Under the pieces are notes generated by a model that was not told where the DNA came from, searched no databases, and saw only the letters and a list, made by a program, of their open reading frames with translations. A stretch of DNA of 34,011 nucleotides, taken from a virus. Positions 6,343-32,713 of the stretch are shown here, in pieces; the stretch's first letter is position 1; each line of letters starts with the position of its first letter. Location: positions 1 through 34,011 of the IMG/VR virus record IMGVR_UViG_3300030101_002014; one strand, written 5' to 3'. The position numbers were made by a program, and so were the translations under genes.

Positions 6343-6773
6343 ATTTGTTAATTCCTTGTTTGTTATCATCTCTGATAATTTAACTATAACCACAGTTAGA
6401 TGTTAGTTTTTTTTACATATCTAGTAAAATATTTTTATTATCTTTTGGGGTTTTATACCTAGGCAACACCACGCCCCAACTTTTAAAACGACAATTTCAA
6501 GCGTTGGTTGATTTTTACCCCCAAAGGCGTATATTTATATTAATGTAAAGTCTATTAGTGATCCTCGCAGAAATGCGATTAACGACTAGCGTATAAATAG
6601 TAATAATTTAATACTCATATACTAAGAATCAAGAAAATAAAAAATTCCCGTAAACGACTAATAATAAGAGAGATGTGCAATGTATATCAAGTAACACTTT
6701 AACCTGAAAAAAACTAGACAACAAATCCTAAATTTTGGTGGTTTTTTATAAATATTTTCCCCTAAATTACTCT
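6343..6773. promoter_or_regulatory. Divergent control region with GC-rich island and small repeats
   Basis: This region separates the minus-strand early genes from the plus-strand genes, so it should hold divergent promoters. Visible elements: TTGGGG at 6445-6450 and CCCCAA at 6474-6479 enclosing a CCTAGG palindrome; a GC-rich stretch to about 6530 in otherwise AT-rich DNA; a short hairpin TCGCA-GAAA-TGCGA at 6565-6578; and the octamer AACGACTA at 6581-6588 repeated at 6653-6660. A possible plus-strand promoter is TTGATT (6508) followed after 17-18 bases by ATATTT/TATTTA (6531), but it is weak. No gene seen before ATG 6774. Confidence 0.4.
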
Positions 6774-6977
6774 ATGCCTAAATATGATTATATATGTCTT
6801 GAAACAAATAATGTTTTCGAGGTGGAGCAAAAGATGACAGATGATCCTCTCGAAAGATGTATTTGTTGTAAAGAAAGATTTCTTGTAAAAAGAATACCTT
6901 CTGTGCCATTATTAGTCGTTAATACTCCAGCATCGATGACAGATCGTAAATTATATAAAGAATTGGATATAGATTAA
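6774..6977 (+). CDS. FmdB-like zinc-ribbon protein with altered first cysteine pair
   Basis: Starting at ATG 6774 the 67-residue protein begins MPKYDYICLETNNVFEVEQK and continues MTDDPLERCICCKERFLVKR. This matches the FmdB family pattern MPxYDYxCxxCxxxFEVxQxMxDxPLxxCPxCG. The first pair is reduced to a single Cys (C-L-E-T), while the second is C-I-C-C, so zinc may be bound differently. An upstream GTG at 6735 is open but lies before the family start. Its stop TAA overlaps the ATG of the next gene. Function of phage FmdB-like proteins is unknown. Confidence 0.65.
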   Translation: MPKYDYICLETNNVFEVEQKMTDDPLERCICCKERFLVKRIPSVPLLVVNTPASMTDRKLYKELDID

Positions 6978-7132
6978 TGTTTGATTACTGTTCGCTAATA
7001 AAAGCTTATTGTTCGTTTGCAGCGAAAGAAAAAGAACTTACATATTGTGGTTTAGCTACTGGTAAAAAAGTAGAAACAAGAGTAGATTATTTAAAAAATT
7101 GTCCAAAAGACAAATTAAAAAAGAGGAGATAG
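6977..7132 (+). CDS. Small Cys/Lys-rich protein (51 residues)
   Basis: The frame MFDYCSLIKAYCSFAAKEKE onward starts in a TAATG overlap with the FmdB-like gene and ends KLKKRR. Four cysteines (in DYCS, AYCS, TYCG and KNCP) are spaced widely and could form a zinc site or a disulphide pair. The C-terminus is strongly basic. It is followed by GAGGAGATAG just before the next ATG. I recognise no family; operon position and coupling are the support. Confidence 0.55.
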   Translation: MFDYCSLIKAYCSFAAKEKELTYCGLATGKKVETRVDYLKNCPKDKLKKRR

Positions 7133-7134
7133 TT

Positions 7135-7206
7135 ATGCCTTATCATTATGGAAAAATGAAAAAGAAAAAAAAGAAAAAAAAGATGAAGAGAGGTAAAAAG
7201 AAATAA
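7135..7206 (+). CDS. 23-residue poly-lysine mini-protein
   Basis: The frame reads MPYHYGKMKKKKKKKKMKRG plus KKK. It stands behind AAGAGGAGATAGTT, an excellent ribosome site, and its TAA overlaps the ATG of the next gene. About two thirds of the residues are Lys or Arg. Such peptides would bind DNA or RNA by charge alone; a DNA-condensing or virion-internal role is possible. Similar Lys-rich peptides headed by a Tyr/His/Gly cluster recur in aquatic phages as far as I recall, without assigned function. Confidence 0.5.
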   Translation: MPYHYGKMKKKKKKKKMKRGKKK

Positions 7207-7385
7207 TGGCTAAAAATTTAAAAGGTGTTAGTCTGAAAGGATTAACCAAAGTACAGAAAAGACAGATGAGCAGACATAAGGTTCATCATACAAAAGCACA
7301 TTTACGATCAATGGCAGCAGCTATGAGAAAGGGCAAAACCTTTAAACAAGCTCATACTGCAGCAATGCGTAAGGTTGGTAAATGA
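7206..7385 (+). CDS. Basic 59-residue protein
   Basis: The frame MAKNLKGVSLKGLTKVQKRQ onward starts in a TAATG overlap and ends AMRKVGK. It contains HHTKAHLRSMAAAMRKGKTF, then KQAHTAAMRKVG, which looks like two related amphipathic helices (AAAMRKGKTF and HTAAMRKVGK share spacing). It is strongly cationic with several His and Met. No known domain; a nucleic-acid-binding helix is likely. Tight coupling to neighbours supports expression. Confidence 0.55.
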   Translation: MAKNLKGVSLKGLTKVQKRQMSRHKVHHTKAHLRSMAAAMRKGKTFKQAHTAAMRKVGK

Positions 7386-7510
7386 ATGTTACCGTATCAT
7401 CTGCTAGAAACTTTATACCGAAGCGTCTTTATGGAATGCGTAAAAAAAGTATAAAGTCTAAATTAAAAGGCAGTCCATTTAAAAAAAAATTTAAATACTT
7501 AAAGGGGTAA
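7382..7510 (+). CDS. Basic 42-residue protein
   Basis: The frame MNVTVSSARNFIPKRLYGMR plus a Lys-rich tail (KSKLKGSPFKKKFKYLKG) starts in an ATGA overlap with the preceding gene. More than a third of the residues are Lys or Arg. AAGGGG stands before the next gene. The protein belongs to the run of tiny basic proteins here; its role is unknown. Confidence 0.5.
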   Translation: MNVTVSSARNFIPKRLYGMRKKSIKSKLKGSPFKKKFKYLKG

Positions 7511-7513
7511 GTT

Positions 7514-7729
7514 ATGTGGGAATTATTTAAAGATAAAAACGAGTACAATGAAAAAAATATTATAGGTTTTCTATCCTTTGCTTTGATGTGTGTATTTGGC
7601 ATAGTTGATTTAGCAATGGGTATTATTGGAATAGAATTAATGGTAAACGATTACATATATAACTCATTTGTCTGGGTAACGCTTGGATCATTTGGAATTG
7701 CAGGAGCAGAAAAAGTCTATAAAAAATGA
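7514..7729 (+). CDS. Small two-helix membrane protein, possible second holin
   Basis: This 71-residue protein has a charged N-terminus (WELFKDKNEYNEKN). One long hydrophobic stretch follows (IIGFLSFALMCVFGIVDLAM, running into GIIGIELMV), then a second one (YIYNSFVWVTLGSFGIAGAE), and the tail is KVYKK. Size, two membrane segments and a basic tail resemble small holins, and the end GSFGIAGAEKV is like the end of the main holin (LGLGGMRSFEKV at 20874-21245). It is far from the endolysin, so the role could be different. The ribosome site is AAGGGGTAAGTT. Confidence 0.5.
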   Translation: MWELFKDKNEYNEKNIIGFLSFALMCVFGIVDLAMGIIGIELMVNDYIYNSFVWVTLGSFGIAGAEKVYKK

Positions 7730-7869
7730 GGCGATCATTATTTAAAGAACGCACTAGAAAGTCAAATGGTGCAAAAAAAACTCGGCAAGGTATGAGCCAT
7801 AATACAAAGTTTGGAAATAAACAATCTAAGAAATACTATAAGAAAAAATACATTGGTCAAGGTAAGTGA
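7726..7869 (+). CDS. Basic 47-residue protein
   Basis: The frame MRRSLFKERTRKSNGAKKTR onward starts in an ATGA overlap with the membrane protein and ends KKYYKKKYIGQGK. Its own stop overlaps the GTG start of the small terminase gene (GTGA). Nearly half of the residues are Lys or Arg, with Tyr and Gly, a composition suited to nonspecific nucleic-acid binding. No family recognised. Its position directly before the small terminase suggests a packaging or virion link, which is inference only. Confidence 0.5.
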   Translation: MRRSLFKERTRKSNGAKKTRQGMSHNTKFGNKQSKKYYKKKYIGQGK

Positions 7870-8534
7870 GTAATTTAGAATTAAAAAAAGCCAATCAAAT
7901 GGCTGCTATTGATTTATTGATCCACAATCCAGAATTAACAAAGAAAGAATTAGCCGAACACCTTAAGCTAGGAGAATCTACAATACATAGCTGGTTTGCA
8001 GATGATAGGTTTATTGATTTATACTATAAAAAATATATGGTTTCTTTCAACTCTAAGCTGCCAATGGTATTAGATAGTATGATAAGAGAGGCAGTCGAAG
8101 GTAATGTCCAGGCAGGGCGTCTTGTATTAGAACATTCAGGAAAGCTAGTCAAAAACATCAATGTAACAGTAGATAGTCCATTCGAAAAGTTTTTAAAAGC
8201 AGAAGAGATTGATGCAAAAGATATTATCGATGCTGAAAGTGAAGAGGTTACTGAAATACTAGAAACTCTTCCAGAGAGAAATCCAGAAAATGACAAACCA
8301 AGAAAAAGAGAGATTAGTGAAAAAAAAGCAGTAGAAAGAATTAAAAAAGGTAAAAAACCATCTCAAGAAAAACTGAGAGAAGATAGAGCAAGTAGATATG
8401 CTTTATTGCAACGAGCTAAAAAGGTTGGATTGAAACCATTACCCTCACGACGTCCTACTAATAGTGAAAGAAGAAAGTGGTTAAAAAAATTAGAAGAGTT
8501 AGAATTTAAGCAACGCCAAAATCTTCAGGCATAA
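7866..8534 (+). CDS. Terminase small subunit
   Basis: This 222-residue protein starts at GTG 7866, in GTGA overlap with the gene before. Residues 10-50 hold a helix-turn-helix (MAAIDLLIHNPELTKKELAE, then HLKLGESTIHSWF) of the phBC6A51/insertion-element type found in small terminases. It is followed by MVLDSMIREAVEGNVQAGRL and VLEHSGKLVK, the conserved helix pair of this family. The C-terminal half is very charged and basic (KPRKREISEKKAVERIKKGK), probably a DNA or large-subunit contact. The protein would recognise the packaging site and hand DNA to the large subunit. The large subunit gene lies on the opposite strand 2 kb away, an unusual separation. The tail of this gene overlaps the convergent 72-residue gene by 29 bases. 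Confidence 0.75.
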   Translation: MSNLELKKANQMAAIDLLIHNPELTKKELAEHLKLGESTIHSWFADDRFIDLYYKKYMVSFNSKLPMVLDSMIREAVEGNVQAGRLVLEHSGKLVKNINVTVDSPFEKFLKAEEIDAKDIIDAESEEVTEILETLPERNPENDKPRKREISEKKAVERIKKGKKPSQEKLREDRASRYALLQRAKKVGLKPLPSRRPTNSERRKWLKKLEELEFKQRQNLQA

Positions 8535-8724
8535 TATCATATTTTTCATATAATTCTGACATTTCCATTGAGATATAAGCTATATTGCTTTTGTCTATTT
8601 CTTTTGTTGATGTTTTATTTGGTGCTATTTTCATACATAAAAACCCTAGTAGTTCGTTATTAGCTTCAGAGATTTCTCTTAGCTCTACAATCATTAAATA
8701 TAATTTCTGAATCAAATCTTTCAT
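8506..8724 (-). CDS. Hypothetical protein, last gene of the inverted packaging block
   Basis: This 72-residue protein starts in an ATGA overlap with the gpG-like gene. The N-terminal 35 residues form a likely coiled helix (LIQKLYLMIVELREISEANN). The rest (MEMSELYEKYDIMPEDFGVA) is acidic. The 3' end overlaps the small terminase gene tail-to-tail by 29 bases. No family recognised. Position after the gpG-like gene suggests a head-completion accessory, but nothing shows it. Confidence 0.5.
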   Translation of the reverse strand: MKDLIQKLYLMIVELREISEANNELLGFLCMKIAPNKTSTKEIDKSNIAYISMEMSELYEKYDIMPEDFGVA

Positions 8725-9293
8725 TCTACTAGTTTACGCATACTAGTTGAAAGATTCCTTATAAATTCTTTGAAAAACCCATTTATTTCAGCATCAATCT
8801 TTTTTTCCATAATTTCAAATGCTTCATCATCAGATGTAAAAAAGAATTTTCTTTGCGGCACTTTAGCAAAATCTCCCATATACCCTTTGTATGATTTATC
8901 ATCTCTTATTACTCCAGATACTTTGCTTTCCAAGTGTTGTTCGTATTTTTCAAGCTCTGTTCCAACAGCAGAAGCAAGATTTGCTTCATCTATCCCATAA
9001 TTGATACTTCTTTCTAGTTCTCCAGTATCTGTCATAATTTTATTATTTTTTATTTTAGATTCGTTGTGATCGTGCTTTATAGCTAAATATTTATAGGTAG
9101 ATGGTGCATATTTTTTACCAGTAATATCTCTTTCCGTTTTAAATGTTTCTTTAACTTTTTTTTTAGCAAAGATTGCTAAACCCTCAAGTGATGAAAGAAG
9201 ATTTGTATTGAATGCTTCTCCAGTAACCTTGTTAAAATTGAAATTAACTCTAACTTGCTGGAACAGTTTCATCTTGTTGTATCTCTGTTTCAT
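8721..9293 (-). CDS. Phage virion morphogenesis protein, gpG/gp10-like
   Basis: This protein has up to 190 residues; starts at 9293 or 9272 (MKLFQQV) are both possible and neither has a clear ribosome site. It overlaps the portal gene. The middle carries ERDITGKKYAPSTYKYLAIK, then IMTDTGELERSINYGIDEAN, and near the end VPQRKFFFTSDDEAFEIMEK. This is the order D.G..W/YxP...(M).TG.L..SI...(V).G......Y....PxRxFxG seen in Mu gpG / tail-completion (HK97 gp10-like) proteins. Those close the head-tail joint or act in early tail attachment. Gene order portal then gpG-like supports the assignment. Confidence 0.6.
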   Translation of the reverse strand: MKQRYNKMKLFQQVRVNFNFNKVTGEAFNTNLLSSLEGLAIFAKKKVKETFKTERDITGKKYAPSTYKYLAIKHDHNESKIKNNKIMTDTGELERSINYGIDEANLASAVGTELEKYEQHLESKVSGVIRDDKSYKGYMGDFAKVPQRKFFFTSDDEAFEIMEKKIDAEINGFFKEFIRNLSTSMRKLVE

Positions 9294-10548
9294 TCACAGA
9301 TTTATTAGCTTGTATGATTTGCTGTGCTTCGCTAATACTCAAATCTTTGTTTTCTTCTGCTAATAATTGTGCCTGAGTAGTTAGGTTGTGTTTAAGTTTA
9401 TATTCATTTAACATAATCTTATCTTGCGTAGTCATAGGATATTCAACCTCAGAAAAGTCTACTTTAAATTGCGAAACTTCTGGTAATCCTAAATTATTTG
9501 CTAGTGAAAGGGCATACTCTACTTTATAAAACTCTTTTTCATATTGACGATACAATTCTTTATCATCAATAAAATCTTCGTGGCGTTCTAAATCTTTAAT
9601 CATTAATGATATACCACTAGGTACTTCCCCACCAGATTGTGCAAAAGTTACAAATAAGTGATTATTTAATGCTACAAGTTCAATCTGCCATTTTATATTT
9701 TCAATTACAGCTTCTACATTACCTTCTGGCGAAACAATATTATAGCTACTTCCTTCAGGCAGAGTAAGAATTTCGTCTGATCCTGCTCTAACATTTGAGT
9801 TGTCAGATATAAGTCCAGTTACTACTGGTTGTCCAAACATTTGGAATCTTAATCCTAGTTGCATTTCAGTCATTGTAATATTAATATGTTCATTGGCAGA
9901 TATTAAATCAGATGCACCTTCAACAAAGAAAGAATCTAATTGTTCTTCTCTGTGTGTGAATACAAAAGGCAAAACACCTAAATTGTGTTGTATTTCCTCT
10001 AGTATATCTCCGTTTTCATTAAATTTGATGTGAATTTCTTTATCCCAATAAGCATACATTAGTTCTTCTGTATCAGAAATATCAGCGTGTCCTTGCATCA
10101 TTGGATATACAATAGATTCTGGTTTGTAAGGATTATTTCCAAAGTACGGCTCAAAATAATAAATAGGACGATATTCAAACCTTTGTTCTTCTTCATCATA
10201 CATTACATAAGTAGCACAAGTTCCAAGCAAACGAGTCATTCGTTCCATTTGTTTCATTCTTGCATTCTTGACAATAGTATAATCTAAGTATCTTTCACTT
10301 ACATTTCTTTTTGCACCAATAGTATAAATCTTTGACATACGATTTACGAATTTTTTAACGATGTTAGTATTGTAATGAGGAATTTCTTGGAATGCGTCAG
10401 ATTTAAAATATCCTTCAATATATTGATCTGTAAGTGAGCCAGAATAATAATCTAAAAATTTTCTTACTTCTTGTCTACGAGCTTTTGCTTGTTCTTCTTT
10501 AAAATGTGTTAATGAATCTTGTATAATTTCTCTAGCTGTTAAAACCAT
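9250..10548 (-). CDS. Portal protein
   Basis: The start at ATG 10548 (MVLTAREIIQ) is chosen because AAAAGGA stands eight bases before it; the frame is open to 10581. The 432 residues have the size and order of SPP1-type portals. There is an N-terminal helical region with YYSGS and a conserved NTNIVKKFVNRMSKIYTIGA. A middle wing follows (RPIYYFEPYF..., LPFVFTHREEQLDSFFVEGA, SDLISANEHINITMTEM), then the long stem helices and a GGEVPSGISLMIKDLERHED segment typical of portals. The C-terminal tail is Gln/Glu-rich. Twelve copies would form the packaging channel at one head vertex. It lies directly after the large terminase, 13 bases apart, on the minus strand. Confidence 0.8.
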   Translation of the reverse strand: MVLTAREIIQDSLTHFKEEQAKARRQEVRKFLDYYSGSLTDQYIEGYFKSDAFQEIPHYNTNIVKKFVNRMSKIYTIGAKRNVSERYLDYTIVKNARMKQMERMTRLLGTCATYVMYDEEEQRFEYRPIYYFEPYFGNNPYKPESIVYPMMQGHADISDTEELMYAYWDKEIHIKFNENGDILEEIQHNLGVLPFVFTHREEQLDSFFVEGASDLISANEHINITMTEMQLGLRFQMFGQPVVTGLISDNSNVRAGSDEILTLPEGSSYNIVSPEGNVEAVIENIKWQIELVALNNHLFVTFAQSGGEVPSGISLMIKDLERHEDFIDDKELYRQYEKEFYKVEYALSLANNLGLPEVSQFKVDFSEVEYPMTTQDKIMLNEYKLKHNLTTQAQLLAEENKDLSISEAQQIIQANKSVNETEIQQDETVPAS

Positions 10549-10561
10549 TAAAGTATTCCTT

Positions 10562-11893
10562 TTATCGTGATATTCTTCCAATGAAATTACTTCTAATTGG
10601 GAATCTATTCAATATAAAATATCTAAAAGCATCGCAACCGTGTTCATAATATCCGTCCTTAATAGGATTATTAGAAATTGATTTGCCTTCCACAGCTTCT
10701 GGGAATCTATATCCTTCGAAATCCTCTGCAATTCCTACACACTTTTTATCCACTTTTATTCTTCTTAGTCCATCTGCATTTTCAAAAAATCCACGACAAT
10801 AACTTACACCAGATTGTATATCACGAGATAGTTTGTCCATTCTGTATTCTACATAAATTCCGTGTCTGCGTAAGATGTGAATATCTCCCATTCCAGATTG
10901 TCCTTGTACAAAACTACCTGCAGGATCTCCGTAATAGGTAATGACTGGATAGTTTTTCTTTTTTATCATTTCTGCTAATTTATCTGTTGGTATATTGCGT
11001 TCGTGAATTATTTCATCAATAATATTAATATGCCAATTACCATCTTGCTTAAATGTTTGAAACCATAATACTGATGGCATTCTAAAACCAAAGTCCATTG
11101 AACAATAGGTTGGTAAATTTTCTTGATATGGAACATCTCCCATATCTATTTCTCTGTCAAATGGATATACTCTTCCTTCCATTGATGTAAACTTTGCTGC
11201 AAACTCTTGGTCAAATAATTCTTTGGACATATTTCTTTTTCGTTCTTGAATAAAAGAATCTTTCTTTCCTTCTGGAAACGCATATTGATTTTCCCAACTT
11301 GGAGATTGTTGTGAATACCATTGAGGATCTGTTTGACCTAATAAAAACAAATCATATATCCAATTAAATCCTTCAGGTGTAGTGATAAAGATGGCTTTAC
11401 CCTTTCTATCTACAAGAGTGGGAGATAAATACATATCCCATATTCTTCTTGGCATTTTTGCTGCCTCATCTATAATTAATAAATCTACTCCTTCTCCGAC
11501 TAGCGAGTCTGGGTTTTCGCAAGACATACCTTCTACTGTTGTTCCCCATTTAAATTTTATATACTGTTCTTTTTCAGATGCTCTATCAATATCGTTTGCT
11601 TTACCTGCTACCATATCTTTCCATATTTCACGGAACATTAATCTTGATTTTTTGTAAGATAATCCAACAAGCCATATTTTTTTATTAGGTTGTGCTGCGT
11701 AAAATTCAGCTTCACGGAATGCTGCAGTAGTTTTACCATACCTTCTACCACAGATGTTTACGAAATAAGATGCGTCAGGTTTGTCAGGAAAATGTAATTT
11801 TCTTTGCCCTTCGTGTGGTTGATATTTCATAAAGTCAAACCACTTTTGTTTGAACTCGAACTCTTTATTTTTCTTTGACATTCTAATTGTCAT
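10562..11893 (-). CDS. Terminase large subunit
   Basis: This 443-residue packaging motor has all main motifs. Walker A is CGRRYGKTT (G49-T56), Walker B LLIIDE (138-143) and the coupling motif ITTPEG (170-175). The RNase-H-like nuclease carries its acidic residues in SMDFG (D267), YYGDPAG (D323) and HGCDAFRY (D421). Length is normal for the family. It hydrolyses ATP to drive DNA into the head and cuts the concatemer. ATG 11893 has no clear ribosome site; ATG 11881 (MSKKNKEF) is an alternative. It is transcribed away from the scaffold and capsid genes from a 55-base divergent gap, and away from the small subunit's strand. Confidence 0.92.
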   Translation of the reverse strand: MTIRMSKKNKEFEFKQKWFDFMKYQPHEGQRKLHFPDKPDASYFVNICGRRYGKTTAAFREAEFYAAQPNKKIWLVGLSYKKSRLMFREIWKDMVAGKANDIDRASEKEQYIKFKWGTTVEGMSCENPDSLVGEGVDLLIIDEAAKMPRRIWDMYLSPTLVDRKGKAIFITTPEGFNWIYDLFLLGQTDPQWYSQQSPSWENQYAFPEGKKDSFIQERKRNMSKELFDQEFAAKFTSMEGRVYPFDREIDMGDVPYQENLPTYCSMDFGFRMPSVLWFQTFKQDGNWHINIIDEIIHERNIPTDKLAEMIKKKNYPVITYYGDPAGSFVQGQSGMGDIHILRRHGIYVEYRMDKLSRDIQSGVSYCRGFFENADGLRRIKVDKKCVGIAEDFEGYRFPEAVEGKSISNNPIKDGYYEHGCDAFRYFILNRFPIRSNFIGRISR

Positions 11894-14511: not shown

Positions 14512-17500
14512 ATGGCTAATACTATTAAGATAAAAGCTGGTAGTGGTACACCTACTACGAGTAATATCGTTGATAGAGAACTTGCATTTGATAGAGGTGC
14601 GAACAAATTATACATCAATGACAATGGAACTATTGTAGATCTAACTGGATCTGGAGCTAGTGGAGATATTGAAGGTGTAACTGCTGGAACTGGTTTATCT
14701 GGTGGTGGTACATCTGGCACAGTAACTTTAAATATAGATTCAACAGTAGCTACACTTACTGGCTCACAAACACTTACTAACAAAACTTTAGCAAGTCCTG
14801 CTTTTACTGGAGATATAAATTTTACTGATGCTTCTACACCAGTATTCAATGTAACAGACACTACAAATACTGTTACAACAAAAATACAATCTGCAGATAG
14901 TTCTGGATTAGTAGGAACAAGCACAGACCATAATTTTAATATAATTAGAAATAATGTATCTCAAATTTTATTACAAGACGGATTTTTAATTATTAATAAT
15001 CCTGGTAATGATGTAGATGTAAACATAAAAGATTCAAGTGCAAATTCATTATTTAGAACAGATGCTGCAAATTCAAGAGTAGGTATTTTAGATGCTTCGC
15101 CAAGTTTTACTTTAGATGTTAATGGAACTGGTAGATTTACTGGTGCAGTACAATTAGATGATAACTTGACTGTATCTGGTAATTTAATAGCTGATACTAT
15201 TGATGTAGCTGGAGATATTACACTTGACGCAGACGGAGCTGATATAATATTAAAAGACGGTGGTACAGAATTTGGTAGACTAACAAACTTCTTAGGTGGA
15301 TTAACTTTGAAAACAGGTTCATCTTCTTCTAACGGTCTTATATTCTCAGCAGACGGAACTACTATGATTACTGGAGGAAGTGTACAGATGTCAGGAGGTT
15401 TTGTTCTTGACGGTAATACTATTACAGGTGTAGATGACTCAGGAGAATTTACTGATGATGATGCTCACATTATGACATCTGCAGCTGTTAATGATAGAAT
15501 ACTGTCTTTTGGTTATATAACTACTGATACAAATACAGTAACTACTAACATAGCAGGTACTGGTATTGATGTAAGTTCTGGTACTGGTAATTCTACTATT
15601 AGTGTTGATGTATCTGACTTTATGTCTAATGGTAGCAATAACAGAATATTAACTGCTACTGGTGCAGATGCTATGAACGCAGAAGCTAATCTTACTTTTG
15701 ATGGAAGCACATTAGCTTTAGATGGTGTTTTAACAGTAACTGAGGGAAGTGGAACTAATACAGTAGTAAACCTTAATGGATCTGCAGCAACATTTTTAGA
15801 AAAAGATACTGGAACTGAATTTTACATAGCAAACAATGCACAAGATAAAGACATAATTCTTAGAGTAAATGATGGTGGCTCAAATGTTACTGCCATAAGA
15901 ATAGATGCAAGTGAAATAGGTAGAGTTAAATTACCTAACGATGCACAAAGATTAGTGCTTGGTGCAAGTGATGATTTACATTTAGAACATAATGGAACAA
16001 ATAGTTTTTTCAGCAATCAAACTGGAGATTTTTACATACAAAACCAAGCAGATGATAAAGACATAATTTTTAGAGCTGACGATGGTAGTGGTGGAAATAC
16101 ACCTTACATAACCTTAGATGGTAGTGCAGGTTTTACTGTAGCACAAAAAAGAATTAGATTTAATGATAATGTTCTTGCTTCATTTGGCGATGGACAAGAT
16201 GCGTATATCTATCACGATGGTACTGATACTCAAATTGTTAATGAAAATGGAGATTTATTTATTCAAAACTTAGCTAACGATAAAGATATTAGATTTAGAA
16301 GTGATGATGGAAGTGGAGGAGTAGCAGAATATTTTAGAGTAGATGGAAGCTCTGAACTAACTTTATTTAGCAAACAGACATCTCATTTAGATAATGTAAG
16401 AGCAAACTTTGGAGATGTTTCAGACTTAAGAATATATCACGATAGCTCAAATAGCTACATACAACATTTAGGAACTGGTAATTTAATAATTCAACAAGGT
16501 TTAGATGATGGAGATTTAGTTTTACAATGCGACGATGGTAGTGGTGGAGTAACTGCTTACCTAACATTAGATGGCAGTAATACTTCTATTTATGCTTATA
16601 AACCACTTTTTGTAGGTAGTAGTGCACAAATACAATTAGATGATGTCAATAGTAGATTATTACTTAAAGATGATATAAGTTTAAAACTTGGAACTGGTGG
16701 AGATTTTGTTGCATTTCACAACGGAAGTAATACATTTTTAAGAGAAAATACTGGTGGATTATTTATTGACCAATTAGTAGATGATGGAGATATAAGCCTT
16801 AGAAGTGATGATGGTTCAGGTGGAATAACTGCTTACATAACATTAGATGGTAGTATAACTAAAACTACTTTCAATCAAGATGCAAGAGTTGTTGATAACA
16901 AAAAAATTGCTTTTGGTAATGCAGATGATTTACAAATCTATCACGATGGTAATAACAATGTTATCAACACAGTAAAACAAGATGCAGATTTATTCTTTGT
17001 TGTAAACGATGGTGGTGCAACTAAAAATGCTATTCAAATAGATGGAAGTGATAATGGTAGTGTTTTTCTGAAAAACGATAATCAATATTTATATATTGGT
17101 GCTGGTAATGATATTGCTATTGGACACGATGGCACGAACTCTATTTTTTATAACTATACTGGAACTTTACAAATAAGAACTGTTGCAGAAGACCAAGATA
17201 TGTTTTTATCTGTTAATGATGGTGGTAGTCATATACACGCATTACAAATAGATGCAAGTGATGGTGGTAGTGCAATTTTTAGTCACGATGTAAAAGTCAA
17301 TGATAATGGTAAATTAAAAGCTGGTAGTGGTAATGATTTTACTATACATCACGATGCAAGTCATACTTTTGTACAAAATACAACTGGTAATTTACTTATA
17401 AGAAATCAATCTCATGGTAGCAAACTACAATTCGGTACAGAAGATAGTAGTGGTACTTTAGCTTATGTTTTAAATATAACTGGAGATAATCATAGAGTCG

Positions 17501-18285
17501 GTATAGGAGTCACAGACCCTGGAGAAAAATTAGATTTAAGAGGTGGTAATTTTAGAGTAGGTGGATTTAATACTGGAAGTGATTTTGGTGCAATATTTAC
17601 ACCTGCTGATTCAGCATCTTATTGGCACATATACAATGACGCAGGTGGACATTTAGCATTTGGTAGAAGTGCAACAATAGGTAGTTCAGAAAAGATGAGA
17701 ATAGACTCATCAGGAAATGTCGGTATTGGAACTACATCACCTGGTGCTTTGTTCCACGTTCAAGAAAGTGGTACTGGAGCAGGTATTGGTGGTATTATAA
17801 CTGAAACTACTACTCAAAATGGTAATGCTGGTATAAGATTTAGAACAGATGGAACTGATAGATGGGCAATAACAACTATTGGAACTAACGGTTCAGATTT
17901 AAGAATTAGAGATGCAGATGGTAGTGCAGATAGAATACAAATAGATTCAAGTGGAGATTTACATTGTGATCAAGATGTTGTAGCATTTTCTTCTACGCCT
18001 TCTGATAAAAAATTAAAAACAAATGTTAAAAATATTGATTATGGTTTAGATACTATTATGAAACTAAAACCAAAACAATATGATTGGAAAACAGACGACA
18101 GACACGATATAGGATTTATTGCACAAGAAGTAGAACAAGTAATACCTGAAATAGTAAAAGATAAAAAACACTTTGATAAAGAAATAAAGACTTTGAATTA
18201 TGAAAAATTAACTGCTGTATTGATAAAAGCAGTTCAAGAACAACAAGTTCAAATAGAAGAACTTAAAACTAAAATAGGAGAATAA
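14512..18285 (+). CDS. Large repetitive fibre with C-terminal S74 intramolecular chaperone
   Basis: This 1257-residue protein has the N-terminal fibre domain (IKAGSGTPTTSNIVDRELAF, DRGANKLYINDNG). A Gly/Thr/Ser-rich shaft with GSQTLTNKTLASPAFTGDIN follows, then eight related units of about 70 residues (DLHLEHNGT...DDKDIIFRADDGSGG...YITLDGS; nucleotides 15791-17510). RVGIGVTDPGEKLDLRG and NVGIGTTSPGALFHV segments come next. The last 94 residues are a peptidase S74 chaperone: S1164-D-K-K-L-K1169 (catalytic Ser/Lys pair), DIGFIAQEVEQVIPEIV, LNYEKLTAVLIKAVQEQQVQ. The S74 domain trimerises the fibre and then cuts itself off before the serine. Role: host attachment or surface-polymer binding. Confidence 0.85.
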   Translation: MANTIKIKAGSGTPTTSNIVDRELAFDRGANKLYINDNGTIVDLTGSGASGDIEGVTAGTGLSGGGTSGTVTLNIDSTVATLTGSQTLTNKTLASPAFTGDINFTDASTPVFNVTDTTNTVTTKIQSADSSGLVGTSTDHNFNIIRNNVSQILLQDGFLIINNPGNDVDVNIKDSSANSLFRTDAANSRVGILDASPSFTLDVNGTGRFTGAVQLDDNLTVSGNLIADTIDVAGDITLDADGADIILKDGGTEFGRLTNFLGGLTLKTGSSSSNGLIFSADGTTMITGGSVQMSGGFVLDGNTITGVDDSGEFTDDDAHIMTSAAVNDRILSFGYITTDTNTVTTNIAGTGIDVSSGTGNSTISVDVSDFMSNGSNNRILTATGADAMNAEANLTFDGSTLALDGVLTVTEGSGTNTVVNLNGSAATFLEKDTGTEFYIANNAQDKDIILRVNDGGSNVTAIRIDASEIGRVKLPNDAQRLVLGASDDLHLEHNGTNSFFSNQTGDFYIQNQADDKDIIFRADDGSGGNTPYITLDGSAGFTVAQKRIRFNDNVLASFGDGQDAYIYHDGTDTQIVNENGDLFIQNLANDKDIRFRSDDGSGGVAEYFRVDGSSELTLFSKQTSHLDNVRANFGDVSDLRIYHDSSNSYIQHLGTGNLIIQQGLDDGDLVLQCDDGSGGVTAYLTLDGSNTSIYAYKPLFVGSSAQIQLDDVNSRLLLKDDISLKLGTGGDFVAFHNGSNTFLRENTGGLFIDQLVDDGDISLRSDDGSGGITAYITLDGSITKTTFNQDARVVDNKKIAFGNADDLQIYHDGNNNVINTVKQDADLFFVVNDGGATKNAIQIDGSDNGSVFLKNDNQYLYIGAGNDIAIGHDGTNSIFYNYTGTLQIRTVAEDQDMFLSVNDGGSHIHALQIDASDGGSAIFSHDVKVNDNGKLKAGSGNDFTIHHDASHTFVQNTTGNLLIRNQSHGSKLQFGTEDSSGTLAYVLNITGDNHRVGIGVTDPGEKLDLRGGNFRVGGFNTGSDFGAIFTPADSASYWHIYNDAGGHLAFGRSATIGSSEKMRIDSSGNVGIGTTSPGALFHVQESGTGAGIGGIITETTTQNGNAGIRFRTDGTDRWAITTIGTNGSDLRIRDADGSADRIQIDSSGDLHCDQDVVAFSSTPSDKKLKTNVKNIDYGLDTIMKLKPKQYDWKTDDRHDIGFIAQEVEQVIPEIVKDKKHFDKEIKTLNYEKLTAVLIKAVQEQQVQIEELKTKIGE
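15791..17510 (+). repeat. Tandem array of about eight degenerate fibre repeats
   Basis: Each unit is about 210-220 bases and encodes a segment of the form DLxIYHDGTNS...TGDLFIxNxADDKDIxFRxDDGSGGxxxYITLDGS. Units begin near 15791, then continue with IYHDG-type starts through GNDFTIHHDAS, ending near 17510. DNA copies keep phrases such as GATGGTAGTGGTGGA, so the array could expand or contract by recombination. Confidence 0.7.
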
Positions 18286-18532: not shown

Positions 18533-19152
18533 TGACTTTAACTTCATCAGGACAAATTAGCATTAGTGATATTAATGGAGAATTTGGTAGGAGTGGAACA
18601 ACTGCTAATAGTTCGTTAGAAGATTTATCTGACGGAACAGTTGCAACAATCAATACTGCAAATGCAAGTGGAGATCGTCCAGATGGCTCTGCTCCTCACG
18701 CTATGACAGAGTTCTATAGCTATGACCACGATTTGGTAACAACTTCTTGGAGTGTAAGTGGAAATACTGGATTAAATTGTGCTGGTAGTGCTGGAACAAC
18801 AGATATGGCAAATAGTTTTGCTACTTGTGTTTTGACTGGAGGATCTGGTGGTGTAGATGTTGAAAATCTTTCTATAACTGGTGGAGCTTTTGGTAATTTA
18901 AAATTTCAGTTTACTACTGACGGTAGCACACCAAGTAGTGGAACATCTGGAGCATCAAGTATTACACAACTACAAAATTCACTATCGAGTTTTAATTCTG
19001 GAACACTAAAGATTAGACCAGGTTGGCAACATACACCGTCTAATAAAGACGGTACTGGTGCATTTAGTTTTACATTAAGAAGTAATGGTGTAGATAGTTC
19101 TGCAATTACTGGAAGTATTACATTTGAAAGTGGAGGAGGATTTGATCCGTAA
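18532..19152 (+). CDS. Structural / receptor-related protein with ISLSDI-type N-terminus
   Basis: The 206 residues begin MTLTSSGQISISDINGEFGR. They match the short N-terminal motif (GxISLSDIxxEFG) found on many phage tip, fibre and putative receptor-binding proteins. The body is Ser/Thr/Gly-rich and beta-type (DMANSFATCVLTGGSGGVDV, NLKFQFTTDGSTPSSGTSGA), and ends SGGGFDP. Start and stop are both in TAATG overlaps. It is likely a virion surface protein; exact place unknown. Confidence 0.55.
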   Translation: MTLTSSGQISISDINGEFGRSGTTANSSLEDLSDGTVATINTANASGDRPDGSAPHAMTEFYSYDHDLVTTSWSVSGNTGLNCAGSAGTTDMANSFATCVLTGGSGGVDVENLSITGGAFGNLKFQFTTDGSTPSSGTSGASSITQLQNSLSSFNSGTLKIRPGWQHTPSNKDGTGAFSFTLRSNGVDSSAITGSITFESGGGFDP

Positions 19153-19424
19153 TGGCTATCACATACAGAGGTATAAGATTTGCAGGTTATAATAAACCTA
19201 AGAGAACACCTGGTCATAAAACTAAATCACACGCAGTTTTGGCTAAATCAGGTGGCAAGATAAAGTTAATTAGGTTTGGACAACAAGGTGTAAGAGGAGC
19301 AGGAAAGAATCCTAGAACAGCAGCAGCTAGAGCTAGGAGAAGAGCATTTAAGGCACGACACGCTAAAAATATTCGCAAAGGGCGTATGAGTGCAGCATAT
19401 TGGGCGAATAAAGTAAAATGGTAA
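19152..19424 (+). CDS. Basic 90-residue phage protein (DUF6321-like)
   Basis: The protein MAITYRGIRFAGYNKPKRTP continues GHKTKSHAVLAKSGGKIKLI and ends KNIRKGRMSAAYWANKVKW. The KPKRTPxHxTKSHxVxxKxxGKxKLIRFGxQG pattern and the terminal KGxMSAAYWANKxKW are those of a small basic family widespread in phages (I recall it as DUF6321), whose role is not known. It is one of a series of cationic proteins in this region and may be an internal virion or DNA-binding component. Confident as a real gene, not about the function. Confidence 0.7.
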   Translation: MAITYRGIRFAGYNKPKRTPGHKTKSHAVLAKSGGKIKLIRFGQQGVRGAGKNPRTAAARARRRAFKARHAKNIRKGRMSAAYWANKVKW

Positions 19425-20134: not shown

Positions 20135-20236
20135 ATGAAAACTAAAATGAAAAAAAAGAAAAAAGGTTTGACAGCAAAACAAAAGAAACTACCTATGGCT
20201 TTACAAAAAGCTATACTAAAAAAGATGCGTAAGTAA
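20135..20236 (+). CDS. 33-residue Lys-rich protein
   Basis: The frame MKTKMKKKKKGLTAKQKKLP plus MALQKAILKKMRK starts after TTTAGGAGATATT, a strong ribosome site, and its TAA overlaps the ATG of the next gene. More than half the residues are Lys or Arg. GLTAKQKKLPxALQKAILKKM is a pattern I recall from small aquatic phage proteins. Likely nucleic-acid-binding by charge; function unknown. Confidence 0.55.
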   Translation: MKTKMKKKKKGLTAKQKKLPMALQKAILKKMRK

Positions 20237-20424
20237 TGCCTAGAAAAAAGAAAAGAAAATCGAGAGTCAATCAAGCAGGAAATTATACTAAACCTACGCT
20301 TAGAAAGCGTCTATTTCAAAAAATCCTTAGAGGAAATAAAGGTGGTAATCCTGGACAATGGAGTGCTAGAAAAGCACAGATGTTAGCACTCGCCTACAAA
20401 CGAGCAGGTGGTGGTTATAGATAA
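20236..20424 (+). CDS. Basic 62-residue protein with GGxPGQWSARKAQ motif
   Basis: The protein starts MPRKKKRKSRVNQAGNYTKP and contains LRKRLFQKILRGNKGGNPGQ followed by WSARKAQMLALAYKRAGGGY. The segment (R/N)YTKPxLRxRLxxxIxxGxKGGxPGQWSARKAQxLAxxYKxxGGGY recurs in many phage and some giant-virus proteins. It is a small conserved module without a proven function; I think of it as nucleic-acid-associated. Its start and stop both overlap neighbours, so the three basic genes 20135-20663 form one translational unit. Confidence 0.65.
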   Translation: MPRKKKRKSRVNQAGNYTKPTLRKRLFQKILRGNKGGNPGQWSARKAQMLALAYKRAGGGYR

Positions 20425-20663
20425 TGGCTCTCAAGAAATCACAGAAAAGTCTGCGTAGGTGGACAAAACAAAAATGGCGTACCAAATCTGGTAAACCGTC
20501 ATCAAAGACTGGAGAGAGATATTTACCAGAACGCTTGATAAAAGCAATGACTTCTTCAGAATACGCATACGAAACTCGCAAGAAAAGAAAAGCAAAAAAA
20601 GCAGGAAAGCAACGAGCTAAGTATTCACGCAAAACAAGAAAAAGAATGCGTAGATATTCATAA
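20424..20663 (+). CDS. Basic 79-residue protein with SLRRWTKQKWRTKSGKPS motif
   Basis: This protein reads MALKKSQKSLRRWTKQKWRT, then KSGKPSSKTGERYLPERLIK, and ends in a run of Arg/Lys (KRKAKKAGKQRAKYSRKTRK). The opening and the GERYLPExxIKAxxxxEYAxxTRKKR segment match a small viral family I recall as DUF5872, found in phages and large DNA viruses and often next to the GGxPGQWSARKAQ protein as here. Function is unproven. It starts in overlap with the preceding stop. Confidence 0.65.
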   Translation: MALKKSQKSLRRWTKQKWRTKSGKPSSKTGERYLPERLIKAMTSSEYAYETRKKRKAKKAGKQRAKYSRKTRKRMRRYS

Positions 20664-31224: not shown

Positions 31225-31434
31225 TTAAAATGGTAATTCTTCGTCTTTTGATTTAGGAATAGAAAAAGCTAACCCAAAATATTTTTTACCAGTTTTACTT
31301 TCGTTAATCCAAGCAGACACATTATAAACTTTTCCGTTTACATTGGCTTGTCCAGTATAGTCTGGGTGTGTATCTTTTTCTTTCTTTTCGTTTGTAAATA
31401 TTGATCCCTTGTTTTCTTTGTGTTCGTAAGCCAT
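31225..31434 (-). CDS. Small OB-fold/SSB-like protein with acidic tip
   Basis: The 69 residues read MAYEHKENKGSIFTNEKKEK, then DTHPDYTGQANVNGKVYNVS and AWINESKTGKKYFGLAFSIP, ending SKDEELPF. The pattern GxxFxNxxxxxxxPDxTGxxxVxGKxYxxSAWxxxxKxGxKYxxLxF is that of the DUF736-like small phage proteins. The terminal DEELPF resembles the DDDIPF tip by which SSB binds its partners. It lies directly after the cytosine methyltransferase (the two touch at 31434), so DNA protection or replication support is plausible. Confidence 0.55.
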   Translation of the reverse strand: MAYEHKENKGSIFTNEKKEKDTHPDYTGQANVNGKVYNVSAWINESKTGKKYFGLAFSIPKSKDEELPF

Positions 31435-32423
31435 TATTCCTCCAATAGGTTATTTATTTTTATTATTCTTCTTCCGATAATATATGGGATTTGTGGTACA
31501 ACTCCATTTCCAAGTCCTTGTACTCTATCGTTATATCTGTCCACTTGTTGGGATAGCCCATAAGCCACTCTATCCAATTCGGATTCATTTTTAAGTATTT
31601 CAAAGGTTTTGATTCTAAATTTTCCAATTCCGTTATTTTGTTTTTCAATACTTTTATTTGCTCTTCTTTCGGAAGTTGGTTGTGTAGATACATTATTGCA
31701 TCTTTCAGCTTTACTCCGTATCTTACGCCCTTTTTGTTCTTTCGACTGAAACTTCCAGTCTTGCTCATTTCGACATTCTTTACTGCTCCCCCTTGAACGT
31801 CTGCTGCTCTCGGTGTTGGATAATTCAAAATCTCTTCTTTGTAAAGTGTTTTTGGCAAACCGTTTTCCTCGAATTTTGTTCCCACTCTTCCCCTGAGTGC
31901 TGTGTAATTGTCCCTGAAATCTCTGCTCAATGGTGTCGAATAACTCTCTCTTGTATGCAATGATCCAAAGTCTTTTTCTGAGGTGTCTACCTCCAACATC
32001 TCTTGCTGATATAACTTGCCATTCTGCATCATACCCTGCTTTGGCAAGATCGTGCAAAACTCTTGTTCCTCCTTTATTAGCGAGGTTTGATACGTTCTCG
32101 ATAAAAACCCATCTTGGTTGTAAATCGCAAATAACTCTCCACATTTCAAACCAAAGACTACTCCTCTCTCCATCTAATCCTGCTCCTTTTCCTGCTGTGC
32201 TTATGTCCTGGCAAGGAAATCCACCACTTATAATATCAACAGATTCTAAATTGTTTTTATTAACATCTCTTATGTCTTTATAATGATTAGCTTTTGGAAA
32301 TCTTTTTTTCAGAAGTTCGTGACACCAATCATCAACCTCGCAAGTCCAGGCAGTTTCGATACCAGCCATCTCAAATCCAAGATCAATACCACCGATACCA
32401 CTAAAAAGACTACCGTGTTTCAT
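31434..32423 (-). CDS. DNA (cytosine-5) methyltransferase
   Basis: Start ATG 32423 makes an ATGA overlap with the winged-helix gene. The 329 residues show motif I (F7-SGIGGIDLGF), motif IV GGFPCQDIS with catalytic C71, motif VI IENVS (E109-N-V) and motif VIII GRHLRKRLWIIA (R146-R151). Near the end come RVAYGLSQQVDRYNDRVQGL and GNGVVPQIPYIIGRRI (motifs IX-X). The target-recognition part is unusually short and basic (about 165-280). The enzyme would methylate cytosine in a sequence that is not readable here. A second open frame with its own conserved motifs lies inside this gene (31463-32173). Confidence 0.88.
   Translation of the reverse strand: MKHGSLFSGIGGIDLGFEMAGIETAWTCEVDDWCHELLKKRFPKANHYKDIRDVNKNNLESVDIISGGFPCQDISTAGKGAGLDGERSSLWFEMWRVICDLQPRWVFIENVSNLANKGGTRVLHDLAKAGYDAEWQVISARDVGGRHLRKRLWIIAYKRELFDTIEQRFQGQLHSTQGKSGNKIRGKRFAKNTLQRRDFELSNTESSRRSRGSSKECRNEQDWKFQSKEQKGRKIRSKAERCNNVSTQPTSERRANKSIEKQNNGIGKFRIKTFEILKNESELDRVAYGLSQQVDRYNDRVQGLGNGVVPQIPYIIGRRIIKINNLLEE
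31463..32173 (-). CDS. Overlapping reading frame with phage methyltransferase-associated motifs
   Basis: This frame is +1 relative to the methyltransferase and is open for 236 codons. Its sequence is not random. It has YQTSLIKEEQEFCTILPKQG followed by MMQNGKLYQQEML (about 28-60), YPTPRAADVQGG (118-129) and MNPNWIEWLMGYPNKWTD (196-213). In phage proteins I know this order well: LPxSGMMxNGxLYxLxxLE, then WPTPxAxDxxG, then LNPxWVEWLMGFPxGWT, in proteins accompanying Dcm enzymes. Over 711 bases the same DNA thus codes two conserved proteins; EWLMGYPNKWTD and DRVAYGLSQQVD are the same bases. The true start is uncertain; no ribosome site is obvious. Confidence 0.6.
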   Translation of the reverse strand: MERGVVFGLKCGELFAIYNQDGFLSRTYQTSLIKEEQEFCTILPKQGMMQNGKLYQQEMLEVDTSEKDFGSLHTRESYSTPLSRDFRDNYTALRGRVGTKFEENGLPKTLYKEEILNYPTPRAADVQGGAVKNVEMSKTGSFSRKNKKGVRYGVKLKDAIMYLHNQLPKEEQIKVLKNKITELENLESKPLKYLKMNPNWIEWLMGYPNKWTDITIEYKDLEMELYHKSHILSEEE

Positions 32424-32713
32424 TTTAATTTCCATCTATAAGAAAATCTACCAAAGTTTCCAATGTGTTTATTTTTAGTCTTTACAATATATCCTTCGTT
32501 TTTTAAATCTGTAAAAGCTCTTCTTATAGAAGTCAATGGTGTTTTTTCGTGTATTAACTTCTGATCCTTTAAATCAAACTCCATAGTTTCTGGTGTATAC
32601 TCATAGTTGAAGTTTTTTTGAAACATAGCCAGAACTATCTCTTTTTGATTTTTTGCTTTTCTTATGTTATTTTTTAAGTTTAATGATATTTCATTCGTAG
32701 TATTATAGTACAT
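32420..32713 (-). CDS. Winged-helix transcription-factor-like protein
   Basis: The start at ATG 32713 (MYYNTTNEISLNLKNNIRKA) stands after AAGGAGAGGAAT; the frame is open upstream to 32791. The 97 residues have KEIVLAMFQKNFNYEYTPET, then TPLTSIRRAFTDLKNEGYIV and KTKNKHIGNFGRFSYRWKLK. This is a winged helix (helix, helix, recognition helix PLTSIRRAFTDL, wing with HIGNFGRFSY), a form seen in small phage regulators. The stop overlaps the methyltransferase start in ATGA. It may regulate this operon. A promoter candidate lies just upstream at 32748-32775. Confidence 0.6.
   Translation of the reverse strand: MYYNTTNEISLNLKNNIRKAKNQKEIVLAMFQKNFNYEYTPETMEFDLKDQKLIHEKTPLTSIRRAFTDLKNEGYIVKTKNKHIGNFGRFSYRWKLK

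Follow-up and report, generated by a model that had tools for sequence, protein, structure and literature searches.

The window analysed here, from a marine phage, is a whole 34,011-base virus contig record, and on its plus strand a run of very small genes leads into the gene for the small terminase subunit (TerS, 7866–8534; PHROG family phrog_24579, E 8.5e-9, and also HTH_Tnp_1_2, E 1e-9). The run is headed by a 67-amino-acid FmdB-like zinc-ribbon gene (6774–6977) that the earlier, sequence-only reading of this DNA omitted; it matches Pfam Zn_ribbon_8 (PF09723, E 3.1e-8), slightly short of the family cut-off. Next come a 51-aa Cys/Lys gene with four cysteines (CK, hereafter the Cys gene; 6977–7132), a 23-aa poly-lysine peptide that is 61% Lys or Arg (module A, 7135–7206), two basic proteins of 59 aa (module B1, 7206–7385) and 42 aa (module C, 7382–7510), a 71-aa membrane protein with two hydrophobic stretches, judged by eye (module E, 7514–7729), and a 47-aa basic protein (g6, 7726–7869; phrog_516, E 1.7e-5) that adjoins TerS. 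From the zinc ribbon to TerS, the junctions are TAATG (−1), +2, TAATG (−1), ATGA (−4), +3, ATGA (−4) and GTGA (−4), so that five ORFs of 23–59 codons plus the membrane protein are coupled into the small terminase with gaps of −4 to +3. PHROG and Pfam profile searches returned no family match for module C, and module E likewise has no family match; the idea that module E is a second holin copy was dropped, as it shows no similarity to the window's holin.

Upstream, 380 bases without a long ORF (6394–6773) separate the cassette from a divergent GP88 gene; an Rfam search of the window, this stretch included, gave no match, and the window contains no tRNA. Promoter-like sites number 17 in 6380–8760, versus 11.3 in shuffled sequence, a difference on which nothing here is based. 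Downstream, at 8506–11893, the minus strand carries the large terminase subunit gene (TerL; PHROG E 8.2e-42) and a putative portal gene, named by its position and with no family match, both of them running towards TerS. In two other loci (L119 and L120), TerL and a portal-like gene come after TerS on its own strand; given this difference, the block has been inverted in one of these two lineages. The window also encodes a major capsid protein (PHROG E 2.8e-27).

A scan with TerS found 124 relatives in viral contigs, and the best 80 of these together with the window gave 81 loci. We calculated pN/pS for each module represented by at least three distinct sequences, after removing rows shortened by contig ends and rows identical in DNA; for module A, the analysis took only those sequences that begin MPYH, and module I (two distinct sequences) and module J lay outside the test. 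Every module with enough sequences is under purifying selection as a protein, with pN/pS between 0.04 and 0.34. The membrane protein is the most constrained cassette gene (0.04), followed by the poly-lysine peptide (0.09; 36 distinct sequences, pS 0.79, pN 0.07), H (0.09), F (0.10; five sequences, bootstrap 0.03–0.76), B1 (0.17), B2 (0.18), the 47-aa gene (0.20), C, D and G (0.24 each) and the zinc ribbon (0.30; 53 distinct sequences), with the Cys gene the highest among the tested modules (0.34; 53 sequences). For the zinc ribbon, A, B1, B2, C, D and E, which the control covers, the wrong frames gave 0.92–2.80. The A-rich coding of lysine runs favours short open frames, and several out-of-frame ORFs rich in Lys and Arg do occur here, which is what one would expect if the genes were chance ORFs in an A-rich stretch; because pN/pS is low in frame and 0.92–2.80 in the wrong frames, however, the ORFs are real genes, and for the modules named above the chance explanation is refuted. 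Strong selection can, then, act on a poly-lysine ORF of 20 codons as a gene. The sequence-only reading had described the five tiny ORFs, the membrane protein, TerS and their couplings, all of which we found where it had placed them, and its view of them as real coupled genes next to packaging genes is upheld by the coding test and the gene couplings; the synonymous-site constraint whose absence from relatives it would have counted against itself is present.

Of the 81 loci, 64 span the full stretch that begins with the Cys gene and ends with the 47-aa gene, and these 64 complete cassettes comprise 16 gene sets. Their order is zinc ribbon, Cys gene, A or F–G, one of B1, B2 or J, C or H, D, E, 47-aa gene, TerS, where all modules between the Cys gene and the 47-aa gene are optional. 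The cassette therefore has fixed ends (zinc ribbon plus Cys gene on one side, 47-aa gene plus TerS on the other) and a swappable middle. Module A is found in 54 of the 64 cassettes, E in 46 and C in 32, and copies of the H family sit inside the cassette in seven relatives; the 47-aa gene is seen in 77 of the 81 loci, and the other four contigs begin too near TerS. A few loci are odd: one carries G, J and H (L076) and three have the additional module I (L069, L072 and L074). The B slot holds B2 in 32 cassettes, B1 in 13, J in nine and nothing in 10, and never two modules at once, an exclusivity that did not arise once when 20,000 random draws kept these counts (a test that ignores kinship).

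On a quick TerS tree, B1 versus B2 required 10 changes, where shuffled labels needed 11.4 on average; this slot is thus exchanged almost freely, and B1/B2 identity is almost unlinked to the tree. For the B slot as a whole, the figures were 17 and 29.1, and gene content is therefore not random on the tree. Near-independence of the TerS phylogeny is what would be seen if these were host-takeover or counter-defence proteins merely sitting in a late operon (acting on the nucleoid, the ribosome or RNA polymerase, or as nuclease inhibitors), with the swapping reflecting an arms race, and phage T4 offers a precedent in IPI, at once a head protein and a restriction inhibitor (PMC9026906). We nevertheless consider this explanation unlikely, since in most of the phages seen the neighbourhood is one of late rather than early genes.

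Viral contigs contain at least 550 relatives of the cassette protein B1 (a match to phrog_31838 over residues 13–59, E 1.6e-6). In 52 sequences, L13, Q17, H24, H27, H28, H32, M36, G43, F46, H50, A53 and G58 are invariant, five of them histidines, and the protein is predicted to adopt a three-helix fold (mean pLDDT 89.5). The combination of invariant residues and predicted fold suggests a metal site or a specific contact with nucleic acid. Elsewhere in the window, on the same strand, lie three further small basic proteins. H (90 aa, 19152–19424; phrog_7595, E 2.1e-36) keeps invariant Trp, Arg and Gly positions and is also predicted to fold (AlphaFold model, mean pLDDT 87.0). The genes for b62 (62 aa, 20236–20424; phrog_17747, E 5.9e-32) and b79 (79 aa, 20424–20663; phrog_14910, E 7.6e-25) are coupled, overlapping by one base, and in two other loci (L163 and L167) the two form one fused protein of 132 aa; in other phages b62 adjoins B1, H and b79. 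A candidate assignment of b79 to a known Pfam domain was dropped when no match was found.

Searches of the PDB by fold with the B1 and H models gave nothing significant (the best VIA-align Z for B1 was 4.3, with an rmsd of 2.9 over 57 aligned residues, to the AAA+ protein NorQ), and sequence searches of the PDB with B1, H, F, DUF6321, b62, b79 and a profile of the 47-aa protein gave nothing convincing. Among viral models, that of H resembled ICP1 ORF125 (E 2.8e-4) and an XkdF-like protein (E 6.2e-5), and full-length H aligns to residues 182–261 of phrog_9979, which is ICP1 gp125, annotated as a capsid protease with a Peptidase_S78_2 domain. By alignment and predicted fold, then, H corresponds to a domain of an XkdF-type capsid protease, but in the window it stands alone, without the protease domain.

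These features bear on the simplest account of such proteins, that they are protamine-like DNA counter-ions that lower the pressure of packaged DNA. The four basic cassette proteins have pI values of 10.8–12.0, and a net charge of +14 to +17 within 23–59 residues, together with the selection that holds the poly-lysine peptide, is what this account would predict. B1 and H, however, are predicted to be folded, with invariant His in one and Trp, Arg and Gly positions in the other; five histidines would not be expected to persist in a mere polycation, and the predicted fold and the kept histidines together argue that B1 is not one. Moreover, 10 of the 64 cassettes have no module A. Plain DNA neutralisation is thus a poor fit as the sole role, given these predicted folds, and we consider the counter-ion account very unlikely as a general explanation; the poly-lysine peptide may still neutralise or condense DNA, as the sequence-only reading proposed for the set.

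The small basic families recur well beyond this group of phages. Of the B1 relatives, 80 loci were kept, 70 of them beyond the TerS clade. A B1 ORF was called in 66 of those 70, and 53 were non-redundant. Another mini-family lay within three ORFs of B1 in 31 of the 53 loci, compared with 42 out of 283 control small ORFs further off in these loci (Fisher P 1e-10, although ORFs within one locus are not independent); the remaining 22 loci had no recognised mini-family neighbour. The neighbours were H (15), b79 (9), b62, YLSG, DUF6321, G and DUF5824 (4 each), the 47-aa type (3) and the Cys gene (1), with matches to the short, Lys-rich G being weak evidence. In a PHROG scan of the larger neighbours of B1 (75 of 156), the large and small terminase subunits were the most frequent named families; after terminase, the families listed (25 of 84) include endolysin, major head protein and head maturation protease, as well as virion structural protein, tail protein and portal.

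Individual gene orders give the same picture. In one locus (L153) the order is TerL, a putative portal (so named by its likeness to the window's), b62, b79, B1, H, a minor-head-like protein, a 159-aa protein and a scaffold protein. In another (L116), B1 lies ahead of a PHROG small terminase and TerL, and a third (L123) is nearly identical in gene order. In Prochlorococcus phage MED4-184, B1-like and H genes directly precede a scaffold-like gene. The F gene (MAKRGLYANIH...) is found one gene upstream of the annotated terS in P-GSP1; HTVC031P and S-TIP37 have it between the genes for scaffold and capsid, P-SCSP1o has it behind the capsid gene, and in CRP-810 it neighbours H, with the capsid gene close by. 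In the T4-like phage ACG-2014e it is fused to DUF6321, directly after gp16. B1 and H are also found near lysozyme or holin genes: a B1 relative follows lysozyme in HTVC111P, and H lies by lysozyme in S-EIV1 and after endolysin in ICBM2. These three are counter-examples to a head-gene setting, as is phage NCTB, which has H among metabolic genes. In unrelated marine phages, then, small basic families border on genes for terminase, head proteins and lysis. The families are also common: H occurs in 146, F in 87 and a DUF6321 gene in 551 out of 50,697 phage records, and in the matches listed these genes are mostly named "hypothetical protein". Searches of phage records with the cassette region at the nucleotide level, and by tblastn with TerS or the 47-aa gene, gave no match. 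Among the papers that our searches of open-access PMC listed, none describes the mini-protein set, judging by title and abstract, and a search there for lysine-rich small phage genes with terminase found nothing.

Such neighbourhoods could also mean that the proteins work alongside TerS inside the infected cell as helpers in packaging or head assembly (in DNA delivery, as pac-site chromatin or as assembly chaperones) without being retained in the virion. The TerS coupling in all 64 complete cassettes speaks for such helpers, as do the placement of B1 ahead of both terminase genes in L116 and L123 and that of F in P-GSP1 and ACG-2014e. The same families are found elsewhere by scaffold, capsid or lysozyme genes, away from TerS, and in phage S-CREM2, where gp136 (which adjoins TerS) and gp137 are encoded between TerS and TerL, the published virion table lists gp136 with eight unique peptides and gp137 with four but includes neither TerS nor TerL (PMC10665884). 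We therefore find the helper explanation rather doubtful, though worth keeping in mind.

The S-CREM2 data reach the window by way of DUF6321, which gp137 carries at 44.7 bits, above the cut-off. The linked domains DUF6321, F and J occur in T4-like cyanophage proteins encoded between gp16 and gp17, among them the DUF6321 protein T4-GC119, which in P-HM2 has a J-like motif (E 9e-6 among nine proteins). These proteins resemble the cassette in being terminase-adjacent, in the J-like motif of P-HM2 GC119 and in the F–DUF6321 fusion of ACG-2014e; they differ in being multi-domain proteins of 141–849 aa. The window itself has no DUF6321 match at E ≤ 1, and virion evidence therefore reaches it via linked families only. 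Moreover, S-CREM2 gp137 is acidic overall, and its four peptides give 4.1% coverage and possibly lie outside the DUF6321 part (PMC10665884). In P-HM2, 12 of 92 distinct coding sequences in 60–159 kb carry the note "similar to Synechococcus phage S-SM1 protein", namely gp3, gp13, gp14, gp15, gp18, gp19, gp20, gp21, gp23, GC400, GC190 and GC119, and GC190 is a virion protein (PMC3037559). Read as marking orthologues of S-SM1 virion proteins, the note would suggest that GC119 is present in virions too. The passages searched in the P-SCSP1u cryo-EM paper do not mention that phage's F and DUF6321 proteins, and the small virion protein ORF009 of P-SS2 was dropped as a candidate relative because it is not basic. 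The gp16–gp17 region of cyanomyoviruses is described as hypervariable (PMC3037559, citing Millard et al. 2009), and, like the cassette, has variable small genes beside terminase genes; it holds metabolic genes, petE, gnd and zwf among them, whereas the cassette has none of this kind.

As a functional model for the cassette proteins, the internal proteins of T4 come closest. IPI, IPII and IPIII are small and basic, are present at about 300 copies each and bind DNA in low salt; they are poorly conserved, and relatives of T4 carry other basic proteins that are possible substitutes (PMC9026906). The cassette proteins are likewise small and basic, and the exchange of different basic proteins between relatives, seen here in the gene sets and B-slot swaps, is common to both; the window's genes, in turn, have 23–59 codons and are coupled to TerS. 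The T4 proteins are targeted to the capsid by an N-terminal sequence of about 10 residues that the head protease removes (PMC7697877). By eye, the N-termini of the modules differ from each other and share no leader, and no match to an S78-type head protease (PF14550 or PF04586) was found in the record, which may be a fragment; the window's proteins are thus not T4 internal proteins by membership.

Our preferred reading, held with middling confidence, is that the cassette encodes exchangeable late, head-associated accessory proteins that are transcribed with the small terminase. The suggestion in the sequence-only reading that the proteins may enter the capsid gains indirect support, from family neighbourhoods, from the H domain in the ICP1 protease and from the detection of gp137 in S-CREM2 virions; going from a place beside head genes to one inside the head relies on linked families and not on the window's own proteins. 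The action on host RNA that the same reading raised finds no support. On this accessory-protein reading, the proteins would be made late and attach to the inside of the head or to DNA during its packaging; some of them, at the least, would leave with the virion and may be ejected in the manner of T4 IPI–III. Module swapping would reflect differences between hosts, as has been proposed for the T4 proteins. The cassette proteins are probably not all equivalent: the poly-lysine peptide may serve as a counter-ion, and the membrane protein would have to do something different from the basic ones.

More tentatively, as something we regard as possible but still improbable, abundant marine phages from several unrelated lineages may share a kit of basic proteins of 20–130 aa, from at least 10 families, that travels in or on the head and is traded one gene at a time. 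It would be encoded either as rows of mini-genes alongside genes for the head and for packaging, or as domains fused into larger head proteins. Such a kit would amount to a widespread and mostly unannotated internal-protein system, and some of its members perhaps bind metal (the five invariant histidines of B1) and are ejected to act in the host. If these are virion proteins, the heads of some of the commonest ocean phages hold an unrecognised set of proteins, and the question of internal-protein function raised by T4 becomes testable in cultured marine phages.

Two further regions of the window are of note. A 1257-aa protein encoded at 14512–18285 resembles tail fibres, with several tail-fibre PHROG matches. 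A C-5 cytosine methyltransferase gene (31434–32435; PF00145, E 1.5e-50) is overlapped, in another frame of the same strand, by an ORF of 236 codons (31463–32173).
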